Origin: Methylocystis sp. ATCC 49242
Lineage (GTDB): Bacteria; Pseudomonadota; Alphaproteobacteria; Rhizobiales; Beijerinckiaceae
DNA length: 64,000 nt
Direction: 5' to 3'
Assembly (NCBI RefSeq): GCF_000188155.2
Contig: NZ_KE124774.1
Coordinates: 1,370,356 to 1,434,355, forward strand
Part shown: positions 16,769 to 28,485 of the stretch, piece after piece
How the letters are laid out: each line of letters starts with the position of its first letter
Numbering within the stretch: position 1 is the stretch's first letter
Made by a program: the position numbers and the translations under genes
Notes under the pieces: generated by a model
What the model was told of the DNA's origin: nothing
What the model saw: only the letters and a program-made list of their open reading frames with translations
Databases searched by the model: none

Positions 16769-17547
16769 TTACGCGGCTATCCCCGCCATTCGGTCGAAGA
16801 AGGTCCCCGTTTTGAGCATTGCGTGCATTATGACCGCCAGCTTGCGCGCGACTGCGACTGCGGCTCGCTTGAAACCAAGCCTCTGTTTGAGCGCGAGCCC
16901 CCATGTCCGCAAGCCGCTGTCGGCTGAACTGCGCGTCAGGATGACGGTCGCCGCCTCGTAGAGAAGCCCTCGTAAATGGCGATCGCCGCGTCGGGATATG
17001 TTGCCGTCATAGTCCACCTCACCTGACTGATAGCGCCGGGTCGTCAACCCAGGCCACGCGCCAACCGGGCGCGAATTCTTGAAATTATTCGGGTCCTCGA
17101 TCGCAGTCGCGAAGGAGGTCGCCGTGATCGCGCCGACACCAGGAATTGATATAAGGATACGGCAAGCATGGCTTTGGCGTGCGGCCGCTATGAGCTGGCG
17201 TCCAAGTTCGGCGGCGCGAATTCGAACGCTTCGCCACGCCTCCAGCATCGGCAGCACGATCGACTCCAGCCTGTCCTGATCAGCAGGAAGGGGGCGGACA
17301 TTCTTCTCGAATGAGCTGCCCTTGCCCGGTGGCGCGATCAAACCGAACCTCTTCATGATGCCGCATTCGCATCGGTCTTGTTCGCGGCCATGTCGAGAGC
17401 TGCCTTCGCATGACGAGCGTCAATGCAGATTGCGGGCAATCCTTCTTCTTGAAGGGCGTGATAAAACCACACGGACAAGGGGCCTGTTTCGAGCACGATG
17501 CGCCGCGCCGCTGGCGCCCGCGCCGACAGCGGCGTGGGGTTCCGCAA
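16769..17547 (-). pseudogene. IS110-family transposase with internal deletion and frameshift
   Basis: The 5' part (17547 downwards) reads ETGPLSVWFYHALQEEGLPA, RHAKAALDMAANKTDANAAS and stops. The second part (17356-16769) restarts in another frame with MKRFGLIAPPGKG and contains the Transposase_20 region (ISIPGVGAITATSFATAI, GLTTRRYQSGEVDY, ISRRGDRHLRGLLYEAA). Relative to intact family members about 60 residues are missing between the parts. The RuvC-like N-terminal start is also lost. The adjacent 16510-16768 has no gene and may be element end DNA. Confidence 0.8.
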
Positions 17548-17559
17548 GAAACTTTCTCA

Positions 17560-17797
17560 AGGAGAAAGTTCTCGTTTTCTTTTCCGAACAGGCGCGCTGC
17601 GTCGTCGCGATGGAGGCCTGCGGCAGCGCGCATCATTGGGGGCGGGCCATCGGCGGCCTTGGCCATGAGGTTCGGTTGATCCCGCCGGCATACGTCAAGC
17701 CCTTCGTGAAGCGGCAGAAGAACGACGCGGCCGACGCGGAGGCGATCTGCGAGGCGGCGAGCCGGCCCACTATGCGGTTTGTCGCGGTCAAACTCGA
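17560..17797 (+). pseudogene. second IS110/IS1111-type transposase, N-terminal fragment
   Basis: Reads ARCVVAMEACGSAHHWGRAI, then GHEVRLIPPAYVKPFVK, then NDAADAEAICEAASRPTMRF, the DEDD-type N-terminal region of IS110 transposases. Similarity stops near 17797. The sequence between there and 17990 is unexplained. Confidence 0.8.
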
Positions 17798-17990
17798 GGG
17801 GCGAAGTTTTGCGGCGGGCCGCCGGCTAGGTCAGGCTCTGCAGCCATTCAATCCGTTTCCGGACGTCTGAATAGCCAATCTGACAATTCAAGCCGACGAG
17901 GCGCTGGATGTCATTTGACTTTAACGAGCCCGAATATGGCCGGGAGATCCCTGCTTCCCGCAATCAAGAGGCGCTGTCGACTTGCATTCA

Positions 17991-19124
17991 ATGGAAGCCT
18001 TGATATGCGATGTCCTGCGCGGAGAGCGCGCGCCATGGCCCGCCGCGCGGGGCGAAGACTTTGCCGACGCGCTCCTCGATAAGGCGCAATATCACGGCGT
18101 GCTGGCTCTTCTCGACGAACGCAGGGCGCACATGGTCGGCTGGCCCCCCACACTTCTCGAGACCCTGCGTGGCTGCAGCCGCGCCGACGCGATGTGGGAG
18201 ATGCGCCATCAGATAGTCCTGGCGCAACTTCACGACGCCCTGGTTGCGCGCGACGTGTATCCGATCGCGATCAAGGGCACTGGGCTCGCCTATTCGCTCT
18301 ATCGCAGCCCATTTCTGCGCGCGCGCGGCGATACGGATCTTTTCATCGCGCCTGATGAACGGTCCAAGGCGGAGGAGGTTCTCGAGGGCCTCGGCTTCCT
18401 CCGCGACATGGGAGTTTCTGGCGCGTACGTCAGTTATCAGGCCAGCTACACGTTGACGGTAGATGACAGGAGCGCCCATACGATTGACCTGCATTGGAAA
18501 ATCAACAATTCCGAGCTGCTGTCACGGTTATTCTCATATAACGAACTGCTGGACCGGGCGACAAAAATACCGCGCTTGTGTGGCAAGGCGCTTACAGCGG
18601 GGCCAGTCGACGCACTGATGCTTGCGTGTATGCATCGGGCCACACATAAAGTTGCTCCCTATTATGTTGACGGAAAAGCCCATTACAGCGGCGATCGACT
18701 CATCTGGCTCTATGATATCCATCTGCTGGCGCAAAGTTTCACCGACGCGATGTGGCAGGATTTCCTCCGCCTGGCGACAGCGAAGGGGTTGTGTGAAGCC
18801 TGTCTGGACGGGCTCGAAGGCGCCCGGACTTTTTTCAGGGCCAATTTGCCACACTATGTGTCCTTGACTCTCAAAGAGGCGGCTGGCGTCGAGCTCGCCT
18901 CGAAATATCTTCGATGCGGAAGCTTGCGTCAAAAATGGATGGATTTTTGTTCGCTCGGTTCGGCCGGACAAAAGCTGGCGTTTCTGCGTGAGATGATCTT
19001 CCCGCCGCCACCCTATATGCGATGGAAATATGCCGACGCCCGATTCAATTTTTTACCCTGGCTCTATTTGCGACGGTCGGTTATGGGGGGCGTCAAATGG
19101 CTCAACCCCCGTCGACAAAGTTGA
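17991..19124 (+). CDS. nucleotidyltransferase-fold protein of a lasso-peptide locus
   Basis: About 377 residues. The central region (AIKGTGLAYSLYRSPFLRARGDTDLFI) matches the nucleotidyltransferase family PF14907, with the D-x-D of the fold in GDTDLFI. Other family-like parts are IDLHWKINN and DALMLACMHRATHK. Proteins of this family occur in lasso-peptide clusters, where they are associated with further decoration of a modified core. It overlaps the ABC transporter gene by 28 nt, so the two are co-translated. An AAGAGG at 17965 precedes a possible TTG start at 17982; the ATG at 17991 is the alternative. The function here is inferred from the family and context. Confidence 0.75.
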   Translation: MEALICDVLRGERAPWPAARGEDFADALLDKAQYHGVLALLDERRAHMVGWPPTLLETLRGCSRADAMWEMRHQIVLAQLHDALVARDVYPIAIKGTGLAYSLYRSPFLRARGDTDLFIAPDERSKAEEVLEGLGFLRDMGVSGAYVSYQASYTLTVDDRSAHTIDLHWKINNSELLSRLFSYNELLDRATKIPRLCGKALTAGPVDALMLACMHRATHKVAPYYVDGKAHYSGDRLIWLYDIHLLAQSFTDAMWQDFLRLATAKGLCEACLDGLEGARTFFRANLPHYVSLTLKEAAGVELASKYLRCGSLRQKWMDFCSLGSAGQKLAFLREMIFPPPPYMRWKYADARFNFLPWLYLRRSVMGGVKWLNPRRQS

Positions 19125-20764
19125 ACCTTCGCGCTCTTGTCGCTTACGCGGCGCCATATCGCGTCTCTCTGCTCTTCGCGAGCGGCGTTACGCTTGCCGA
19201 AACGGGCGCGGCGCTTGTCGTGCCCTGGCTTGGCGGCCGATTTGCGGGGGACATGCTGTCGCAAGGGCAGGGGCCTGTCGGTTCGACGCTGCTGGCGCTC
19301 CTCGCCGCATTGGCGGCTCAAGCGCTGTTGAAGTTTCTCAACGGATATTTGGTCGCCAGCGTCTCCGAACGCATATTGGCCGACCTACGCGTCCGCATCT
19401 ACGATCATTTGCAGTCGCTGCCGCTCTCCTTTTATCATCAGCGGCCGAGGGGAGACATTCTTGCGCTCATAACACGTGAAATTTCGCAACTCAGCGAATT
19501 CATTACCGGCACCTTCATCGCTGCGGCGCCGACTCTGCTGACGATCTTTGGTGCAATCCTGCAAATGTTTTCGATCGATGTCTTGCTCGCGGGGCTTGTC
19601 GCGGGCCTGACGCCGATCTTCATCCTGCTTTTGAAGATCGTCGGTCGTAAACTGCGGCCGCTTTCGGGCGAACTCCAGGAAGCGGAGGCGACCTCTGTCG
19701 CCATCGCCGAGGAAAATCTCGGCATGCTACCAATCATAAAGATGTATACGCGGGAGAAGCAAGAAGGGCAACGTTACCGCAGACAGATATACAATGTCGT
19801 CCGTCTAAGCACGCTTCAGCAGCGAATCTATGCTGCGCTCGATCCGGCGGTGCAGCTTATCGCCGCGAGCGCAGTCGTGCTTTTGCTCTGGGTCGCCACG
19901 GGTCAAATGGCGCAAGGTTCCCTGACGCCTGCCGGATTGGTCAGTTTCATTCTCTACTCTGCGATGCTGTCGCGTCCGATCGGCGCGATAGCTGGCCTGT
20001 ATGGCCGGACGCAGATGGCGCGAGGGACTCTGGAGCGCCTGCATCGCGTGCTTGCCGAGCGGCCAGAGCCGATCGCTCTAACAGGCCTCACCCTGCAGCG
20101 CGTTCGCGGCGAAATTGAATTTCGCGGCGTGAGTTTTCATTATCCGGGCCGACCGCCCGTTCTGAAAAGCCTCGATTTTCATATCAGGGCGGGCGAAACC
20201 ATTGCGATCACCGGTCACAACGGCGCCGGCAAGAGCACGCTAATGCACCTCTTGATGCGGCTCTATGAGCTCGACGCTGGCCGCATTTTCATCGACGGCG
20301 TCGATATTGCAAACGTCGACCTGCATAGTCTGCGCAGTCAGATCGGCGTCGTTCCGCAACGCGTGCTTTTGTTCAATTCGAGCGTGCGCGCCAATATCGG
20401 ATTCGGCGATCCCCGGGCGGAGCAGGCCGCGATTGAACGTGCTGCGCGCTCGGCCCAGGCGCATGATTTCATAAGCCGACTGCCGGCCGGTTATGACACC
20501 GTCATCGGCGATGACGGCGTCAGATTGTCAGGTGGGCAGCGCCAACGCATTGCTCTTGCGCGCGCCTTGATAAAGAATCCGCCGATCCTCGCGCTCGATG
20601 AAGCGACGGCCATGTTCGACCCGCAAGGCGAGGCTTCGTTGATAGGGGAATTGCGCGATGGTCTGGCGGGTCGCACGGTCATTCTCATCACGCACCGCCC
20701 GGCAAGTCTGGCGCTGGCGGATCGCGTGGTGAAGCTCGAAGGCGGCGTGATTTCGACAATGTGA
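19097..20764 (+). CDS. ABC exporter, lasso-peptide D-type
   Basis: Starting at the ATG at 19097 (G-rich site just upstream) gives 555 residues. A six-helix ABC exporter domain (about 15-310) is followed by an ATPase domain with Walker A GHNGAGKST, Q-loop VVPQRVLL, signature LSGGQRQRIALARAL, Walker B ILALDEATAMFD and H-loop THRP. The first gene-length ATG (19022) lies inside the previous gene and would add an unrelated N-terminus. Such half-transporters dimerise in the inner membrane. Beside a lasso cyclase it is expected to export, and give immunity to, the lasso peptide. The cyclase follows 43 nt downstream. Confidence 0.85.
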   Translation: MAQPPSTKLNLRALVAYAAPYRVSLLFASGVTLAETGAALVVPWLGGRFAGDMLSQGQGPVGSTLLALLAALAAQALLKFLNGYLVASVSERILADLRVRIYDHLQSLPLSFYHQRPRGDILALITREISQLSEFITGTFIAAAPTLLTIFGAILQMFSIDVLLAGLVAGLTPIFILLLKIVGRKLRPLSGELQEAEATSVAIAEENLGMLPIIKMYTREKQEGQRYRRQIYNVVRLSTLQQRIYAALDPAVQLIAASAVVLLLWVATGQMAQGSLTPAGLVSFILYSAMLSRPIGAIAGLYGRTQMARGTLERLHRVLAERPEPIALTGLTLQRVRGEIEFRGVSFHYPGRPPVLKSLDFHIRAGETIAITGHNGAGKSTLMHLLMRLYELDAGRIFIDGVDIANVDLHSLRSQIGVVPQRVLLFNSSVRANIGFGDPRAEQAAIERAARSAQAHDFISRLPAGYDTVIGDDGVRLSGGQRQRIALARALIKNPPILALDEATAMFDPQGEASLIGELRDGLAGRTVILITHRPASLALADRVVKLEGGVISTM

Positions 20765-20807: not shown

Positions 20808-22712
20808 ATGAGCGGAATCGCCGGGATAGTGAGATTTGACGGCGCTCCGGTCGAGCGGGGGCTGATCGAAAAAATGACGGCCGCAATGGCTTATCGCGGC
20901 CCCGATGGCGTCAATCATTTCGTGCGCGGATCGATCGCGCTCGGCCACTGCATGTTGCGCACGACGCCTCAGTCACTGCACGAAAATCAACCGCTCTCCA
21001 GCGATGATGAAGCGGTGACGCTGGTCATGGACGGTCGGGTCGACAACTGGGAGGATTTGCAGCGCGAAGTTGTGATGCGCGGCGCAAGGTTGCGCGGAAA
21101 ATCTGACGCCGAGCTCGTGCTGCGCGCCTATGAGTTTTGGGGCCCAGACTGTCTTGGCCGGATCGACGGCGACTTCGCCCTTGCGATCTGGGATGAGCGG
21201 CGCCGGGAGATTTTTTGCGCCCGCGACCGCATCGGCGTCAAGCCGTTCCATTATCATTGGGACGGGAAGACGTTCGTCTTCGCCTCCGATCTTCACGCAA
21301 TTCTTGCCTTGCCATGGGTTCCCCGAACGCCCAACGAAGGGATGCTTGCGGAGGTGATGGCGGACGAATGGTATACGAGAGACGAAACATTATGGCTCGG
21401 GGTGATGCGTTTGACCGCGGCGCATTGCATGAGCGTTGGCGGCTCCGCTCCGCTGCCGCGGCAGTATTGGGCTCCCGATCCATGGGCGACGCTTCCCTGC
21501 AGCAGTGACGACGACTATTTCGCCTATTACCGCGATCTGCTGACGGAGAGCGTCAGACGGCGCAGTCGCTCGCATCGAGAGCTTGCTTGCGAAGTGAGCG
21601 GCGGTCTCGACTCGTCAGCGCTCTTTTGCCTAGCCGATTCGCTCGAAAGGCAGGGAAGACTGCTTGCGCCGGGCCTCGAGGGATACACGGTCGATTTCTC
21701 GGACGACGCCGCCGCAAACGAACTGTCTTACGCACGAGCTGCAGGCGCGCATGTCGGAAGAACGATACATGAAGTATCACCGACATTTCACGATATCGAC
21801 TGGTTTGCCGAGCGGGCCGCAGCTTTTCTCGATATGCCTGGCGCGCCGAATGGCGCCGCGCTGATGGGGCTCCATGAGCATGCTGCGTCGCGAGGCGCCC
21901 GGGTGATCCTGTCTGGCGCCGGCGGCGATCATTTCCTGAGTGGATCGCGAGTCTACTATTTTGAAGAATTTGAACAACGCAATTGGCGTAATCTGATCAA
22001 TTGCTTCATAGCCGATGTTCATGCGGCGGGCGGCGTCCGCGCCATATCGTGGTTGATCAGCAATGGGATGGCGCCATTGCTGCCACAAAGGGCGAAAGCA
22101 GTGTTACGCACGCTCATCACATCTGTGATGGGACGATCCGAAAAGGCCGCATCCTGGTTGACGCCTCGCATGCGTGCGAAGCTCGACGAGCGCCGCATGC
22201 GCGCCTGGAATATTCCCGAAGAAAGCTTGCGCCGAAAGAGTCAGCGATCGATTTTGGAAGCATTATACTATCCTCCTGACAACTGGGGTCGCGTTCAAAG
22301 TGAACGTCTCGACGCGAGTGTCGGGATCGAAACCAGAGCCCCTTTCTACGCGCATGAATTGGTGCAATTCGCTCTTTCGACGCCAGAGCGATTGCGGCTA
22401 CGCGGGAATCGAGACAAATTCATTCACACCGAGTCCCTGCGCGGCATCCTTCCGCCAACGCTGACCGCCAGAACGACCAAGGCCGATTTCGGCGACATCT
22501 TCCATCGTTTCCTTCTTTCGCACCGGGGACTTGTCTCCAAGATGGTCCCGAGCGCGCGACCGGAATGGCTGGATTCGAAGGCGATGGAGGAACTCCTGCC
22601 GAGTGATGCGCCGCATCCGGGGCGGATCCCGGAAAGCTGGGCTTTGTGGAGGGTTTTATGTATACATATGGGCATGTCGCGATTCGATTTGCGTTCGGAT
22701 GAGGCGATATAG
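20808..22712 (+). CDS. lasso cyclase, asparagine-synthetase-like (C protein)
   Basis: This 634-residue protein has an N-terminal class II GATase-like fold (about 1-210: YRGPDGVNH, DGDFALAIWDERRREIFCARDRIGVKPF) and a C-terminal asparagine-synthetase ATP-binding domain with the PP-loop SGGLDSS at about residue 263 and SGAGGDHFLSG. Residue 2 is Ser (MSGIAG) where glutamine-hydrolysing AsnB has the catalytic Cys (MCGI), so glutaminase activity is not expected. This is the usual state in lasso cyclases, which adenylate a core Asp/Glu side chain and join it to the core N-terminus. Context supports this: an exporter and NTase gene upstream, and a leader-like peptide gene 87 nt downstream. Confidence 0.85.
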   Translation: MSGIAGIVRFDGAPVERGLIEKMTAAMAYRGPDGVNHFVRGSIALGHCMLRTTPQSLHENQPLSSDDEAVTLVMDGRVDNWEDLQREVVMRGARLRGKSDAELVLRAYEFWGPDCLGRIDGDFALAIWDERRREIFCARDRIGVKPFHYHWDGKTFVFASDLHAILALPWVPRTPNEGMLAEVMADEWYTRDETLWLGVMRLTAAHCMSVGGSAPLPRQYWAPDPWATLPCSSDDDYFAYYRDLLTESVRRRSRSHRELACEVSGGLDSSALFCLADSLERQGRLLAPGLEGYTVDFSDDAAANELSYARAAGAHVGRTIHEVSPTFHDIDWFAERAAAFLDMPGAPNGAALMGLHEHAASRGARVILSGAGGDHFLSGSRVYYFEEFEQRNWRNLINCFIADVHAAGGVRAISWLISNGMAPLLPQRAKAVLRTLITSVMGRSEKAASWLTPRMRAKLDERRMRAWNIPEESLRRKSQRSILEALYYPPDNWGRVQSERLDASVGIETRAPFYAHELVQFALSTPERLRLRGNRDKFIHTESLRGILPPTLTARTTKADFGDIFHRFLLSHRGLVSKMVPSARPEWLDSKAMEELLPSDAPHPGRIPESWALWRVLCIHMGMSRFDLRSDEAI

Positions 22713-22799
22713 CTGCGTCCTTGAGCACTTATGCTTGAAGGCGGGCAAATGGGGCAGTCTTGACCCGGTTTTACTCCGTCAAAACAAAAGGCGCCGTCG

Positions 22800-22970
22800 G
22801 TGACGTCAGATCGACCACCCCTTGGTCCCGGCAAAATCATCGCCGAAGAAACGAACGCGGCGGTTTGCGGAGCCGGGAAGAAGAAGGCGTATTCGGCGCC
22901 AATCCTGCGGGTCTATGGCTCAGTGATTGAATTCACCAAAGGTTCTAGAGGGTGTTATGTACTTTGGTGA
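22800..22970 (+). pseudogene. lasso-peptide precursor gene, core interrupted by IS-A
   Basis: Reading from a GTG at 22800 (AAAAGG 8 nt upstream) gives a 47-residue leader ending KKAYSAPILRVYGSVIEFTK and then Gly-Ser. Relative to Gly48 as core residue 1, Tyr31, Pro34, Leu36, Gly40 and Thr46 fall at -17, -14, -12, -8 and -2. This is the spacing recognised by the lasso RRE (Y-x2-P-x-L) and leader peptidase (Thr -2). The core is cut after two codons: CTAG at 22945-22948 is the IS-A target and the element follows. The frame then runs seven IS-encoded residues (RGCYVLW) to a stop at 22968-22970. That tail has no Asp or Glu at positions 7-9, so no macrolactam ring can form. No ATG exists in this frame. 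The gene is on the same strand as the cyclase. Confidence 0.8.
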
Positions 22971-23811
22971 TTGATTGTCTTAGTAGAATCGGATGTCTCC
23001 GATTCGCAAACCTTATCCGTCTGACGTCAGCGACGAAGAATGGTCGCTGGTTGCGCCTTATCTGACGCTCATGGACGAAGGCGCGCCGCAGCGTCAACAT
23101 TCGCTGCGCGAGCTGTTCAACGGCCTGCGTTACGTGCTGCGCTACGGCATCGCCTGGCGCGCCATGCCCAACGATCTGCCGCCATGGTTCGCCGTGTATC
23201 AGCAATCGCAGCGCTGGCTGTCGGCGGGCGTGTTCGAGGCGCTTGCGCAGGATCTGCGCGCCCAGTTGCGCGTCGCTTCCGGGCGGGCGGCGGAGCCGAC
23301 GGCGGCGATCATCGACAGCCGCACCTTGCGCTCGACCCCTGAGAGCGGCCCACGAGCGGGCTATGACGGCGCGAAGCGAAAGCGCGGCTCGAAGCTGCAC
23401 ATGGCAGTCGACACATTGGGCCATTTGCTGGCGTTGCATGTCACGCCGGCGAATGTCGATGACCGCGCCGAGGTCGGCAAGCTCATCGCAGCCGTGCAGG
23501 ATGTGACAGGCGAAAGCGTCGAACTCGTTTATGTCGATCAGGGCTACACCGGCGAAAAGGCGTCCGAGGCCGCAAAGGCGCAGGGCGCCGAGCTGTGCGT
23601 CGTCAAACTCGCCGAGGCCAAAAAAGGCTTCGTGTTGCTGCCCAAGCGCTGGGTGGTCGAGCGTTCATTCGCCTGGGCGACGCGATGCAGGCGGCTCGTC
23701 AAAGACTACGAGCGCTATGCTCAGACCCTCGCAGGACTCCACGTCGTCGCCTTCGCATGTCTCATGCTCAAGCGCGCAGCAGATTTCATGATCCAAGGTG
23801 CATAACACCCT
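22949..23811 (+). mobile_element. IS-A copy 2 (IS5 family, 863 bp), inserted in the lasso core
   Basis: AGGGTGTTATG (22949) to CATAACACCCT (23811). The left flank is CTAG and the right flank CTAA, followed at once by IS-B, so the right duplication has been altered by the neighbouring insertion or by recombination. Confidence 0.9.
22993..23805 (+). CDS. IS5-family transposase (IS-A copy 2)
   Basis: Intact 270-residue protein, identical to the copy at 4872-5684 as far as compared by eye. It has the same DDE motifs (IIDSRTLRS, VYVDQGYTGE, RWVVERSFAW). Confidence 0.92.
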   Translation: MSPIRKPYPSDVSDEEWSLVAPYLTLMDEGAPQRQHSLRELFNGLRYVLRYGIAWRAMPNDLPPWFAVYQQSQRWLSAGVFEALAQDLRAQLRVASGRAAEPTAAIIDSRTLRSTPESGPRAGYDGAKRKRGSKLHMAVDTLGHLLALHVTPANVDDRAEVGKLIAAVQDVTGESVELVYVDQGYTGEKASEAAKAQGAELCVVKLAEAKKGFVLLPKRWVVERSFAWATRCRRLVKDYERYAQTLAGLHVVAFACLMLKRAADFMIQGA

Positions 23812-23815
23812 CTAA

Positions 23816-24750
23816 GAGTCCGTCCCAGAAGTTAGTCAACAATTGCAGAGCTTTCGTAGCATGAGCCGAATCGACGCGAAACGCAGGAACACGAGCGCTG
23901 TGATATTGAGGTTTTCCCAATCCTTGGCCAGTCTTCTACAGCGGTTTAGCCAGGCGATTGATCTTTCGACGATCCAGCGCATGGGCAATTTCACGAAGCC
24001 CTTCGCCTGATCGGATCGTTTTATAATCTCGATTTTGAGACACGGTAGGATTTTGCCCGTTGCGTCGGCGAAGATCGGTCCCTGATAGGCGCTGTCAGCC
24101 AACAGCTTTTCAAGAAAGGGAAACCGCCCATGCAACGTCGAAAGCAGCAAGACGCCGCCGTCTCGGTCCTGAATGTCGGCGCCGTGAACGACGGCGCCCA
24201 TCAACAAACCTTGCGTATCGACGAGTACGTGGCGTTTCTTGCCTTTGATCTTTTTGCCGGCGTCATAGCCATGCGGATCAATGCGCGCCCCCCTTTTTCC
24301 GCGCTCTTCACGCTCTGACTATCGATGATCGCCGCGGTGGGGCTCGCCTCTCGTTCCGCTCGTTCGCGACACATGACGTAGAGCGCGTCGTGCATGCGAT
24401 CCAGAACGCCGCACCAGGCCCAATCGCAAAAATAACGATACACTGTGCTCTTCGGGGGAAAATCCTTGGGAATGTACCGCCATTGGCATCCCGTGCTCAG
24501 CACATACATGATGGCGTTGAACACCGCCCGCATGTCCACTTCACGCTTGCGCCCGCCACGCTTGGCCGGAGGAATAAGCGGCGCCACATGCCCCCACTCC
24601 TCGTCCGTCACATCACTCGGATAACGTAACCTGTCGCGATTGTATTTCGCCCGGTTTGCCTTCGTCCACATCGACGGCCTCCTACGAATCAGACCGCCTC
24701 CCATCCATCACAACAGATTCATTCGATTCAACATCTTTCAGGACGGACAC
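23816..24750 (-). mobile_element. IS-B copy 3 (935 bp)
   Basis: GAGTCCGTCC (23816) to GGACGGACAC (24750), flanked by TAA on both sides (23813-23815 and 24751-24753). It lies directly against IS-A copy 2. Its right end supplies the last base of the stop codon of the glycosyltransferase at 24750-25916. Confidence 0.92.
23836..24671 (-). CDS. IS5-family transposase, -1 frameshift (IS-B copy 3)
   Basis: Frame 1 runs from 24671 to 24201 and frame 2 ends at 23836. Same AGGAGG site and A5G6 shift as the other copies. Confidence 0.85.
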
Positions 24751-27201: not shown

Positions 27202-28485
27202 TCATGAGGATACCATACGTGAAATCAGCAACGTAGGTATCCCAAAAAGAATTATTCGGTAGGTAAATGCCTCCAAGGACTGGAGCACGAGATATACCGA
27301 CATCGAGGCCATTAATAGGTAAACAGCGTTTGAGAACATCGACTCCCGCCGAGCAGCTATCCAGGCGCTCGCAAAGAAGTAACCAATAGAGAATGCAAAA
27401 ACTGGCGCAGCAAGGCCAAACTCCAAGCAAACCTCAGCTACAAAGCCGGGAGCTGCGCCCACTGCAGGCATCCACCCGGTCATCCTACCAACCAACCCGA
27501 TCGGCACCCCATTATTCACGTGAAAATCAACACCTATCAGGTTTAGGTACGACGCAACTTCCTCATACTTGGTTGGCCACCATGCCGAAGGGATCACACG
27601 AGCCAAAATATGCCCAAACAATCTTCGGCCCATGAAAGGATCGCCTCCACCGAGTAAGTACCTCATTATACTATTTCCATAAACGTATTCAGAACCATAA
27701 AGGTCCTTGATTGCTTCAAATGCACCCCTCGAAAACTCTGCCTTTGATCCAACGTAAATTGCATCACGATTGGACACGAGAAACAATGCGACATATCCAA
27801 CCAATATTACGGAAACGGCAGCCAATACAATCGGGATTTTCTTCCTCAGAATTCCGACATATCCGCCGATGAGCAACATGAAAACTAAAATTAAAGGGCC
27901 CCGCCTAGCACCAAGGATCGCTTGGAGCAACATTGGTGAGATAATGACACCGAGCAGGGCCCAATGCCGCCAGAACATACCCTCCTTTTTTCTCGCAATA
28001 AACAAAAGCGGTACAGCAACAACTGACATGTTACGCGCTTCACTGATGTATCCATCAGCAATATACACAGCTCCGTAAGCACGCCCGTAAACCTCAGATA
28101 TGCCGCCAAACGAAAATAAATAGAAAAATGAAAGACCAGCACCCGTAAGGCCAACTAAACCGGCCAACACTGTAAGATGCGAAGCATTATAACCTAGCGA
28201 AGATGACATCTCCCGCCGTCGGGAGCCCACATAGATACCAGAAATTAAGCTCACAAATATCAATAATACAATGAACTCATATGTTATTACGTTATCTTCT
28301 GAGCCGTTGAATAAAACAAATTTATCGCTATCATTAGCTATCAAAACAAGTGGTTGGAGAACATAAACAAATGAGAATAAAGCGGAAAAAATAATCGCGG
28401 GATGTAAAGTGTCATAACTGTATCTAAAGGCGATTGACGCAGTTATGAAGCACACGAATCCGAAAAATATTATTGACTCGATCAT
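27202..28485 (-). CDS. Wzy-like oligosaccharide repeat-unit polymerase, last residues replaced by IS3 junction
   Basis: 427 residues with about ten to twelve hydrophobic segments and a long hydrophilic loop (about 225-330), the layout of O-antigen/EPS polymerases. Motif-like parts include GARRGPLILVFMLLIGGY, YGNSIMRYLLGGGDPFMGRR and AAPGFVAEVCLEFGLAAPVFA. It would join lipid-linked repeat units at the periplasmic face. Its stop codon (TGA, 27204-27202) lies in the IS3 end. Without the insertion the frame would add six residues (RRNQIA) and end in an ATGA overlap with the glycosyltransferase. Its start overlaps the stop of a preceding glycosyltransferase by one base. The sequence is AT-rich. 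Confidence 0.8.
   Translation of the reverse strand: MIESIIFFGFVCFITASIAFRYSYDTLHPAIIFSALFSFVYVLQPLVLIANDSDKFVLFNGSEDNVITYEFIVLLIFVSLISGIYVGSRRREMSSSLGYNASHLTVLAGLVGLTGAGLSFFYLFSFGGISEVYGRAYGAVYIADGYISEARNMSVVAVPLLFIARKKEGMFWRHWALLGVIISPMLLQAILGARRGPLILVFMLLIGGYVGILRKKIPIVLAAVSVILVGYVALFLVSNRDAIYVGSKAEFSRGAFEAIKDLYGSEYVYGNSIMRYLLGGGDPFMGRRLFGHILARVIPSAWWPTKYEEVASYLNLIGVDFHVNNGVPIGLVGRMTGWMPAVGAAPGFVAEVCLEFGLAAPVFAFSIGYFFASAWIAARRESMFSNAVYLLMASMSVYLVLQSLEAFTYRIILFGIPTLLISRMVSS

Follow-up and report, generated by a model that had tools for sequence, protein, structure and literature searches.

A short frame interrupted by an insertion sequence marks the very probable remnant of a lasso-peptide cluster in Methylocystis sp. 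ATCC 49242

Does the short open frame that lies behind an asparagine-synthetase-like gene of Methylocystis sp. ATCC 49242 encode the precursor of a lasso peptide, and what has become of this peptide? We addressed this question in a stretch of 64,000 nucleotides, called here the window. Our reading is that the window very probably carries what is left (N-D-C-A′) of a lasso-peptide cluster of the proteobacterial type A-K-B1-B2-C-D-N, which is probably dead now, its other genes having presumably been lost through the insertion element IS-A or through recombination between copies of this element. It is a decayed member of a known lasso class, ordinary but well supported. The genes N, D, C and A′ all lie on one strand, separated by short gaps or overlapping, and are followed by two insertion elements:

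17982..19124, + strand: N, nucleotidyltransferase-like protein (NTP_transf_5), lasso accessory gene (PF14907, E 3.9e-31)
19097..20764, + strand: D, ABC exporter (PF00664 and PF00005)
20808..22712, + strand: C, lasso macrolactam synthetase, asparagine-synthetase-like (NF033535, PF00733, PF13537)
22800..22940, + strand: A, leader of 47 codons from GTG, ending with the motif YSAPILRVYGSVIEFTK
22941..22947, + strand: A, surviving core, codons of Gly1 and Ser2 (22941-22946) and one extra base
22948-23812, + strand: IS-A, IS5-family element of 865 bp that interrupts the core (NF033580, 207 bits, over the cut-off)
23816..24750, - strand: IS-B, second IS5-family element, 935 bp (NF033580, 131 bits for the N-terminal frame)

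The precursor frame extends from a GTG at position 22800, 87 nt downstream of the cyclase stop (22712), to 22967, with the stop codon at 22968-22970, and its translation is VTSDRPPLGPGKIIAEETNAAVCGAGKKKAYSAPILRVYGSVIEFTKGSRGCYVLW. Relative to Gly48, it carries Tyr31 at -17, Pro34 at -14, Leu36 at -12, Gly40 at -8 and Thr46 at -2, so that every position of the leader pattern of lasso precursors is occupied by the expected residue. The last native bases, which end at 22947, are GGT TCT A. The read-through tail after the leader is G-S-R-G-C-Y-V-L-W, that is, seven codons past Ser49 and then a stop. Gly1 of a lasso core is present, but there is no Asp or Glu at positions 7 to 9, IS-A having interrupted the core after its second residue. 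The earlier note had reported the spacing of the five leader residues, the same-strand position, 87 nt downstream of the cyclase, and the cut after Gly-Ser with a tail devoid of an acidic residue at 7 to 9; the spacing was exact on the translation, the coordinates agreed, and the cut and the tail were read directly from the sequence. The interruption of the precursor frame by IS-A is confirmed, and the frame at 22800 is a broken precursor, no working one.

The interrupting element encodes its transposase at 22993-23805 and has 12-bp complementary ends (GAGGGTGTTATG/CATAACACCCTC). At least 40 full-length copies of 99-100% identity are present in the genome, together with one 135-bp piece; this copy number is a lower bound, 40 having been scored of 183 first-look candidates. 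Read in one orientation, the flanks of the 40 complete copies scored were CTA/TAG (31 copies), CTA/TAA (6), TTA/TAG (2) and CTA/TAT (1), and the copy in the precursor has CTA/TAA. The earlier note's CTAG as the entry site of IS-A cannot be shown for this copy, since its right flank reads TAA. IS-B starts three bases (TAA) after IS-A and has TAA/TAA as its own flanks. To the right of IS-B is the end of a glycosyltransferase gene, and the block from IS-B to about position 28079, comprising the glycosyltransferase and the following genes, is duplicated in inverted orientation on the same contig (G000:C6:1252000-1262000, L050) with 99.9-100% identity. In this second copy of the block the flanks of IS-B are TGA/TAA. 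One glycosyltransferase copy of the duplicated block is split by IS-A.

No lasso genes were seen to the right of IS-A. The native right flank could not be fixed because the glycosyltransferase DNA matched its own genome only among the 39 of the genus (0 of the 38 others), and the IS-B/glycosyltransferase block that stands to the right of IS-A makes the lost core unreadable here. The missing half of the core was also looked for beside the other IS-A copies. Inspection of the right flanks of the 40 complete copies scored gave an acidic residue at 7 to 9 and a stop within 30 codons in 4 of 40 (L007, L015, L026, L042), and when the element was read from its opposite end 5 of the 40 copies qualified (L001 itself, L006, L010, L014, L020). 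No B2 gene, stand-alone PqqD gene or kinase gene was found anywhere in the genome, and the idea was dropped.

The flanks are compatible with more than one order of events. The loss could have come first, through a deletion or recombination that joined the precursor to the end of the glycosyltransferase gene, with IS-A entering the fused site later at CTAA. The CTA/TAA flanks of this IS-A, a combination found in 6 of the 40 copies scored, and the TAA/TAA flanks of IS-B agree with such a course, and they imply that both elements could be simple later insertions. This order, however, needs an extra event that truncated the precursor exactly at an IS-A target, whereas the cut and the loss are both accounted for if IS-A was the site of a deletion or recombination; we consider the loss-first order unlikely.

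The extent of the loss was evaluated in the whole genome (G000; 4,726,034 bases, 6 contigs). No B2 gene was found, PF13471 giving 0 matches genome-wide, while it matched 2 of 14 control genomes, 1 of them over the cut-off. Nor was a stand-alone RRE, the PqqD-like B1 of lasso clusters, detected in the genome: the one match to PqqD falls in the N-terminal part of a 487-aa fusion that belongs to a PQQ-type operon and lies behind PqqB/PqqC-like frames (PQQ names assigned by eye). The kinase of a congener, used as the query for the lasso kinase K in a search that had no positive control of its own, found nothing in the genome. Besides the 3′ part of the core, K, B1 and B2 are gone or undetected, and since B1, B2 and the kinase are undetected both in the cluster and in the genome, the cluster is partial and probably dead. 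Of the earlier description, a lasso gene destroyed by an IS, the cut by IS-A stands; the damage is wider than described, B1, B2 and the kinase being absent too.

These data also bear on whether IS-A simply hit the precursor and left maturation genes that act in trans and serve another precursor. C, D and N are indeed open and look intact, but PF13471, a stand-alone PqqD and a lasso kinase went undetected in the whole genome and the DNA to the right of IS-A consists of IS-B and the glycosyltransferase segment, which makes this explanation very improbable. The undamaged cyclase frame, which counts against a dead cluster, indicates either that the decay is recent or that the protein has another use.

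That the surviving genes belonged to a lasso cluster is suggested by their own similarities. C is an open frame of 634 aa with a Met-Ser start, and the lasso cyclase model NF033535 ranked first, with 353 bits, among 9 listed NCBIfam models, versus 282 and 231 bits for competing models, the last being TIGR03108 (XrtA/PEP-CTERM amidotransferase). C can be taken as the macrolactam synthetase of the cluster though its score is below the curated cut-off of 525. The cyclase of locus L034, which is 52% identical to C and adjoins a B2 over its cut-off, is likewise under the NF033535 cut-off (393 bits). The longest ORF of D opens at 19022, the ATG at 19097 having been chosen by eye as the likelier start, and across 543 aa its product shares 62% identity with the ABC exporter encoded in L034, the Thiobacillus lasso cluster. 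N is 42% identical to its counterpart in the congener cluster L064 and 31-32% to those of L062 and L063. Just upstream of N, at 16769-17870 of the window, there are fragments of an IS110-family transposase (PF02371, weak PF01548), so that the cluster remnant is flanked by mobile-element debris on both sides.

The leader was assessed against chance and against profiles. A single occurrence of the strict pattern Y..P.L...G.{5}T was counted over all six frames of the window itself, whereas the average over 100 first-order Markov resamplings was 0.02 per window; a looser leader pattern, with 7 real occurrences against a mean of 8.8 resampled, was uninformative for chance estimates. A profile was then built from six leaders, two of them from L039 and one apiece from L034, L062, L063 and L064; the window did not contribute to it. 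It was compared with every stop-to-stop frame of the window that had 20 residues or more, 1642 in all. First among them, with an E value of 1.2e-4, was the frame 22764-22967, the second having 0.59. Among NCBIfam models, the leader matched lasso_cyano (E 8.8e-6) and rhodolasso (E 9.1e-4) without reaching the curated cut-off of either, and no Pfam match was obtained for the precursor frame. Of six precursors of the relatives scanned with the same models, two (L063 and the second of L039) reached the cut-off of lasso_leader_L3, three remained below cut-off and the first of L039 had no match to any model. The scores of cyclase and leader below curated cut-offs count against the lasso reading.

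Scanning the genome collection with the cyclase C gave 3 loci from 32 candidate stretches; the highest identity, 52%, was in a Thiobacillus MAG. Within the genus, 3 of 39 genomes matched at E <= 1e-60, its own included and the two others at 35-36%. With at most 3-4 candidates scored per genome, matches were obtained in at least 2 of 298 genomes of the family at E <= 1e-90 (its own and one at 43%), in its own genome only of the 397 of the order at E <= 1e-110, among the matches listed, and in at least 3 of 385 genomes of the class at E <= 1e-110 (its own and two at 39-40%). Plasmids gave no match for the cyclase (E limit 1e-60) or the precursor (E limit 1).

The earlier note had staked its reading on homologous leaders standing beside lasso genes in relatives. 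Such a leader was found immediately behind the cyclase and on its strand in 6 of the 8 cyclase-relative loci examined (L034, L039, L062, L063, L064, L065), the position that A occupies in the window; the cyclases of these six are 34-52% identical to that of the window. At L035 and L036, with cyclases of 27-30%, a pattern scan gave no leader; L036 is a 3.8-kb contig with little downstream DNA, since it ends 354 bases past the match. An HprK-like kinase (K) and a PqqD gene (B1) follow the precursor in all six leader-bearing loci, and tblastn found B2 in five of them, the exception being L062. In L034, B2 is over the cut-offs of NF033537 and PF13471 and PqqD over that of PF05402; the B2 proteins of L064 and L039 are over the PF13471 cut-off. 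HPr-kinase models recognise the kinases of L034, L064 and L039 only below cut-off and that of L062 not at all; at L063 and L065 the genes were assigned by tblastn alone. In the congener locus L064 the order is B2-C-A-K-B1-D on one strand, with N alongside. Between the exporter and B2 of L034 (L034:3454-5151) are a HipA-like gene and a helix-turn-helix partner, followed by a 27-aa repeat of the C-terminal end of the exporter, as if the pair had been inserted with a duplication.

Synteny and the leader profile (E 1.2e-4) support the lasso-leader reading of the short frame. That it is a chance ORF with a coincidental motif behind the asparagine synthetase of another pathway (e.g. an exopolysaccharide amidotransferase) can draw on the missing Pfam match, on precursor models under curated cut-offs, on the glycosyltransferase nearby and on the TIGR03108 match of the cyclase (231 bits), but is hardly credible when the lasso cyclase model scores top, chance would supply the strict motif 0.02 times per window, the frame ranks first of 1642 with the profile of the relatives, and its position behind the cyclase is kept in six relatives at 34-52%, a synteny that already contradicts it.

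The intact cores of the relatives mostly start with Gly-Ser, a few with Gly-Gly or Gly-Arg, and mostly have Asp8; exceptions are an Asp9 in L077 and the Ser1/Glu8 type in the two congeners. The precursors of the latter (L064:7112-7273(-) and L065:7296-7526(-)) combine Val at -2 with a core of the form Ser1...Glu8 (SGCSGRRE), Ser1 being unusual for a lasso core. The Gly-Ser of the window fits the majority. The relatives suggest only the type of the lost core, and the peptide itself is not recoverable from this genome.

Taken as a dead lasso cluster, the locus may have had the following history. In the ancestor, the RRE (PqqD-like B1) would have bound the YxxPxL leader, B2 would have cut after Thr-Lys, C would have linked Gly1 with the side chain of an acidic residue, probably Asp8, and D would have exported the lasso. 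IS-A, or recombination between its copies, would have removed the downstream part, i.e. the rest of A, K, B1 and perhaps B2, and the same event would have joined the precursor stump to an exopolysaccharide-type region, leaving a cluster that has presumably lost the ability to make a lasso peptide. B2 may have sat elsewhere or have been lost in another way, because it lies between D and C in L034 while the window has only 43 nt there. The locus illustrates a way in which a natural-product cluster can die where IS elements abound, at least 40 copies of one element being present, and shows that synteny can support a precursor fragment which ordinary gene calling overlooks.

Two of the six leader-bearing loci contain a precursor whose core runs straight into a Peptidase_S74 domain, which is of the intramolecular-chaperone kind (L062:9428-9784(+) and the second precursor of L039, 9570-9983, +). 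At L039:9338-9983(+), an untailed and an S74-tailed precursor stand side by side behind one cyclase. The L062 precursor, used as query against 397 genomes of the family of its host, gave matches in 13 at E <= 1e-6. Five were tailed precursors with a leader (L069, which is L062, and L070-L073), three were leaders without a tail (L075, L077 and L081, the last being L063), and five (L074, L076, L078, L079, L080) were mainly tail, in frames of 248-429 codons; four of these five exceed the limit of the leader scan, which covered frames under 250 residues. A cyclase was present within the 1.5-kb flank at L069-L072, L075, L077 and L081, and none was found within this distance at L073.

All six distinct tailed precursors (L062, the second of L039, L070-L073) exceeded the cut-off of PF13884, and the S, D, R and K of an SDxRxK motif were invariant in 6 of 6. 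From core residue 1 to the residue before the motif Ser there are 16-25 residues, and the cores of untailed relatives have 15-20 (n = 7). Against solved structures, the profile of the S74 family matched myelin regulatory factor (7dc3, E 1.1e-4) and a phage tail fibre (6f45, E 0.067). In the 7dc3 chain the residue that aligns with the motif Ser is Ala, which we take to be an engineered change. S74 domains trimerise and cut before the motif Ser using a Ser-Lys pair. We tentatively suggest, as a possibility somewhat short of an even chance, that the cluster lineage includes a second precursor design composed of a leader, a 16-25-residue Asp8 core and a self-cutting Peptidase_S74 tail with the SDxRxK site at the core end, and that the lost core may be of either design. 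The tail would fold, probably as a trimer, cut itself off and free the C terminus of the lasso, acting as a self-removing follower. The lost core of the window began with Gly-Ser, like most tailed precursors. As a possible trace of a lost tailed precursor, the genome itself gave one Peptidase_S74 match, at the C-terminal end of a 551-aa frame, which was rejected because no lasso leader was seen by eye.

The S74-tailed precursors are more novel than the relic in the window. A search of open-licence papers for lasso peptides together with endosialidase, S74 or intramolecular chaperone found no work linking them among the papers listed, the sole overlap of terms being on travel-related disease, and a term search in a 2026 review of interlocked peptides gave no mention of S74, follower or autoproteol. 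If the proposal is true, such precursors would add a new mode of freeing a RiPP, of larger value than the relic.

No lasso cluster broken by an IS was recognised among the papers listed in the literature search; one study of Sphingomonas reports a laboratory Tn5 insertion in a B2 gene (PMC11006600). The locus L034 (MAG 'Thiobacillus denitrificans UBA4768', DHHQ01000017.1) resembles the window in its exporter (62%), its cyclase (52%) and a precursor directly behind the cyclase; it differs in that B2, K and PqqD are present, that its core is intact (GGGGSRTDGNGLSKDRSKT) and that no N gene was detected in the stretch of L034 examined. The congener loci L064 and L065 (genomes G018 and G017) belong to the same genus and share with the window N (42%), D, C (34-35%) and the kind of leader behind the cyclase, whereas they have B2, K and B1, Val at -2 and a Ser1/Glu8-type core; they represent a different cluster lineage and are therefore not the lost original of the window. 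The characterised bsf cluster of Bradymonas sediminis has the genes A, B1, B2, C, D, K and N, and its family has a Gly1-Asp8 ring and YxxPxL at -17 to -12 (PMC10368454). The window is like bsf in the gene kinds of its cluster type (A, B1, B2, C, D, K, N) and in the position of YxxPxL, and differs in the penultimate leader residue, Thr in the window versus Ile in bsf (PMC10368454). Compared with bsf, the window keeps N, D, C and only the leader of A, the core beyond Gly-Ser being lost.
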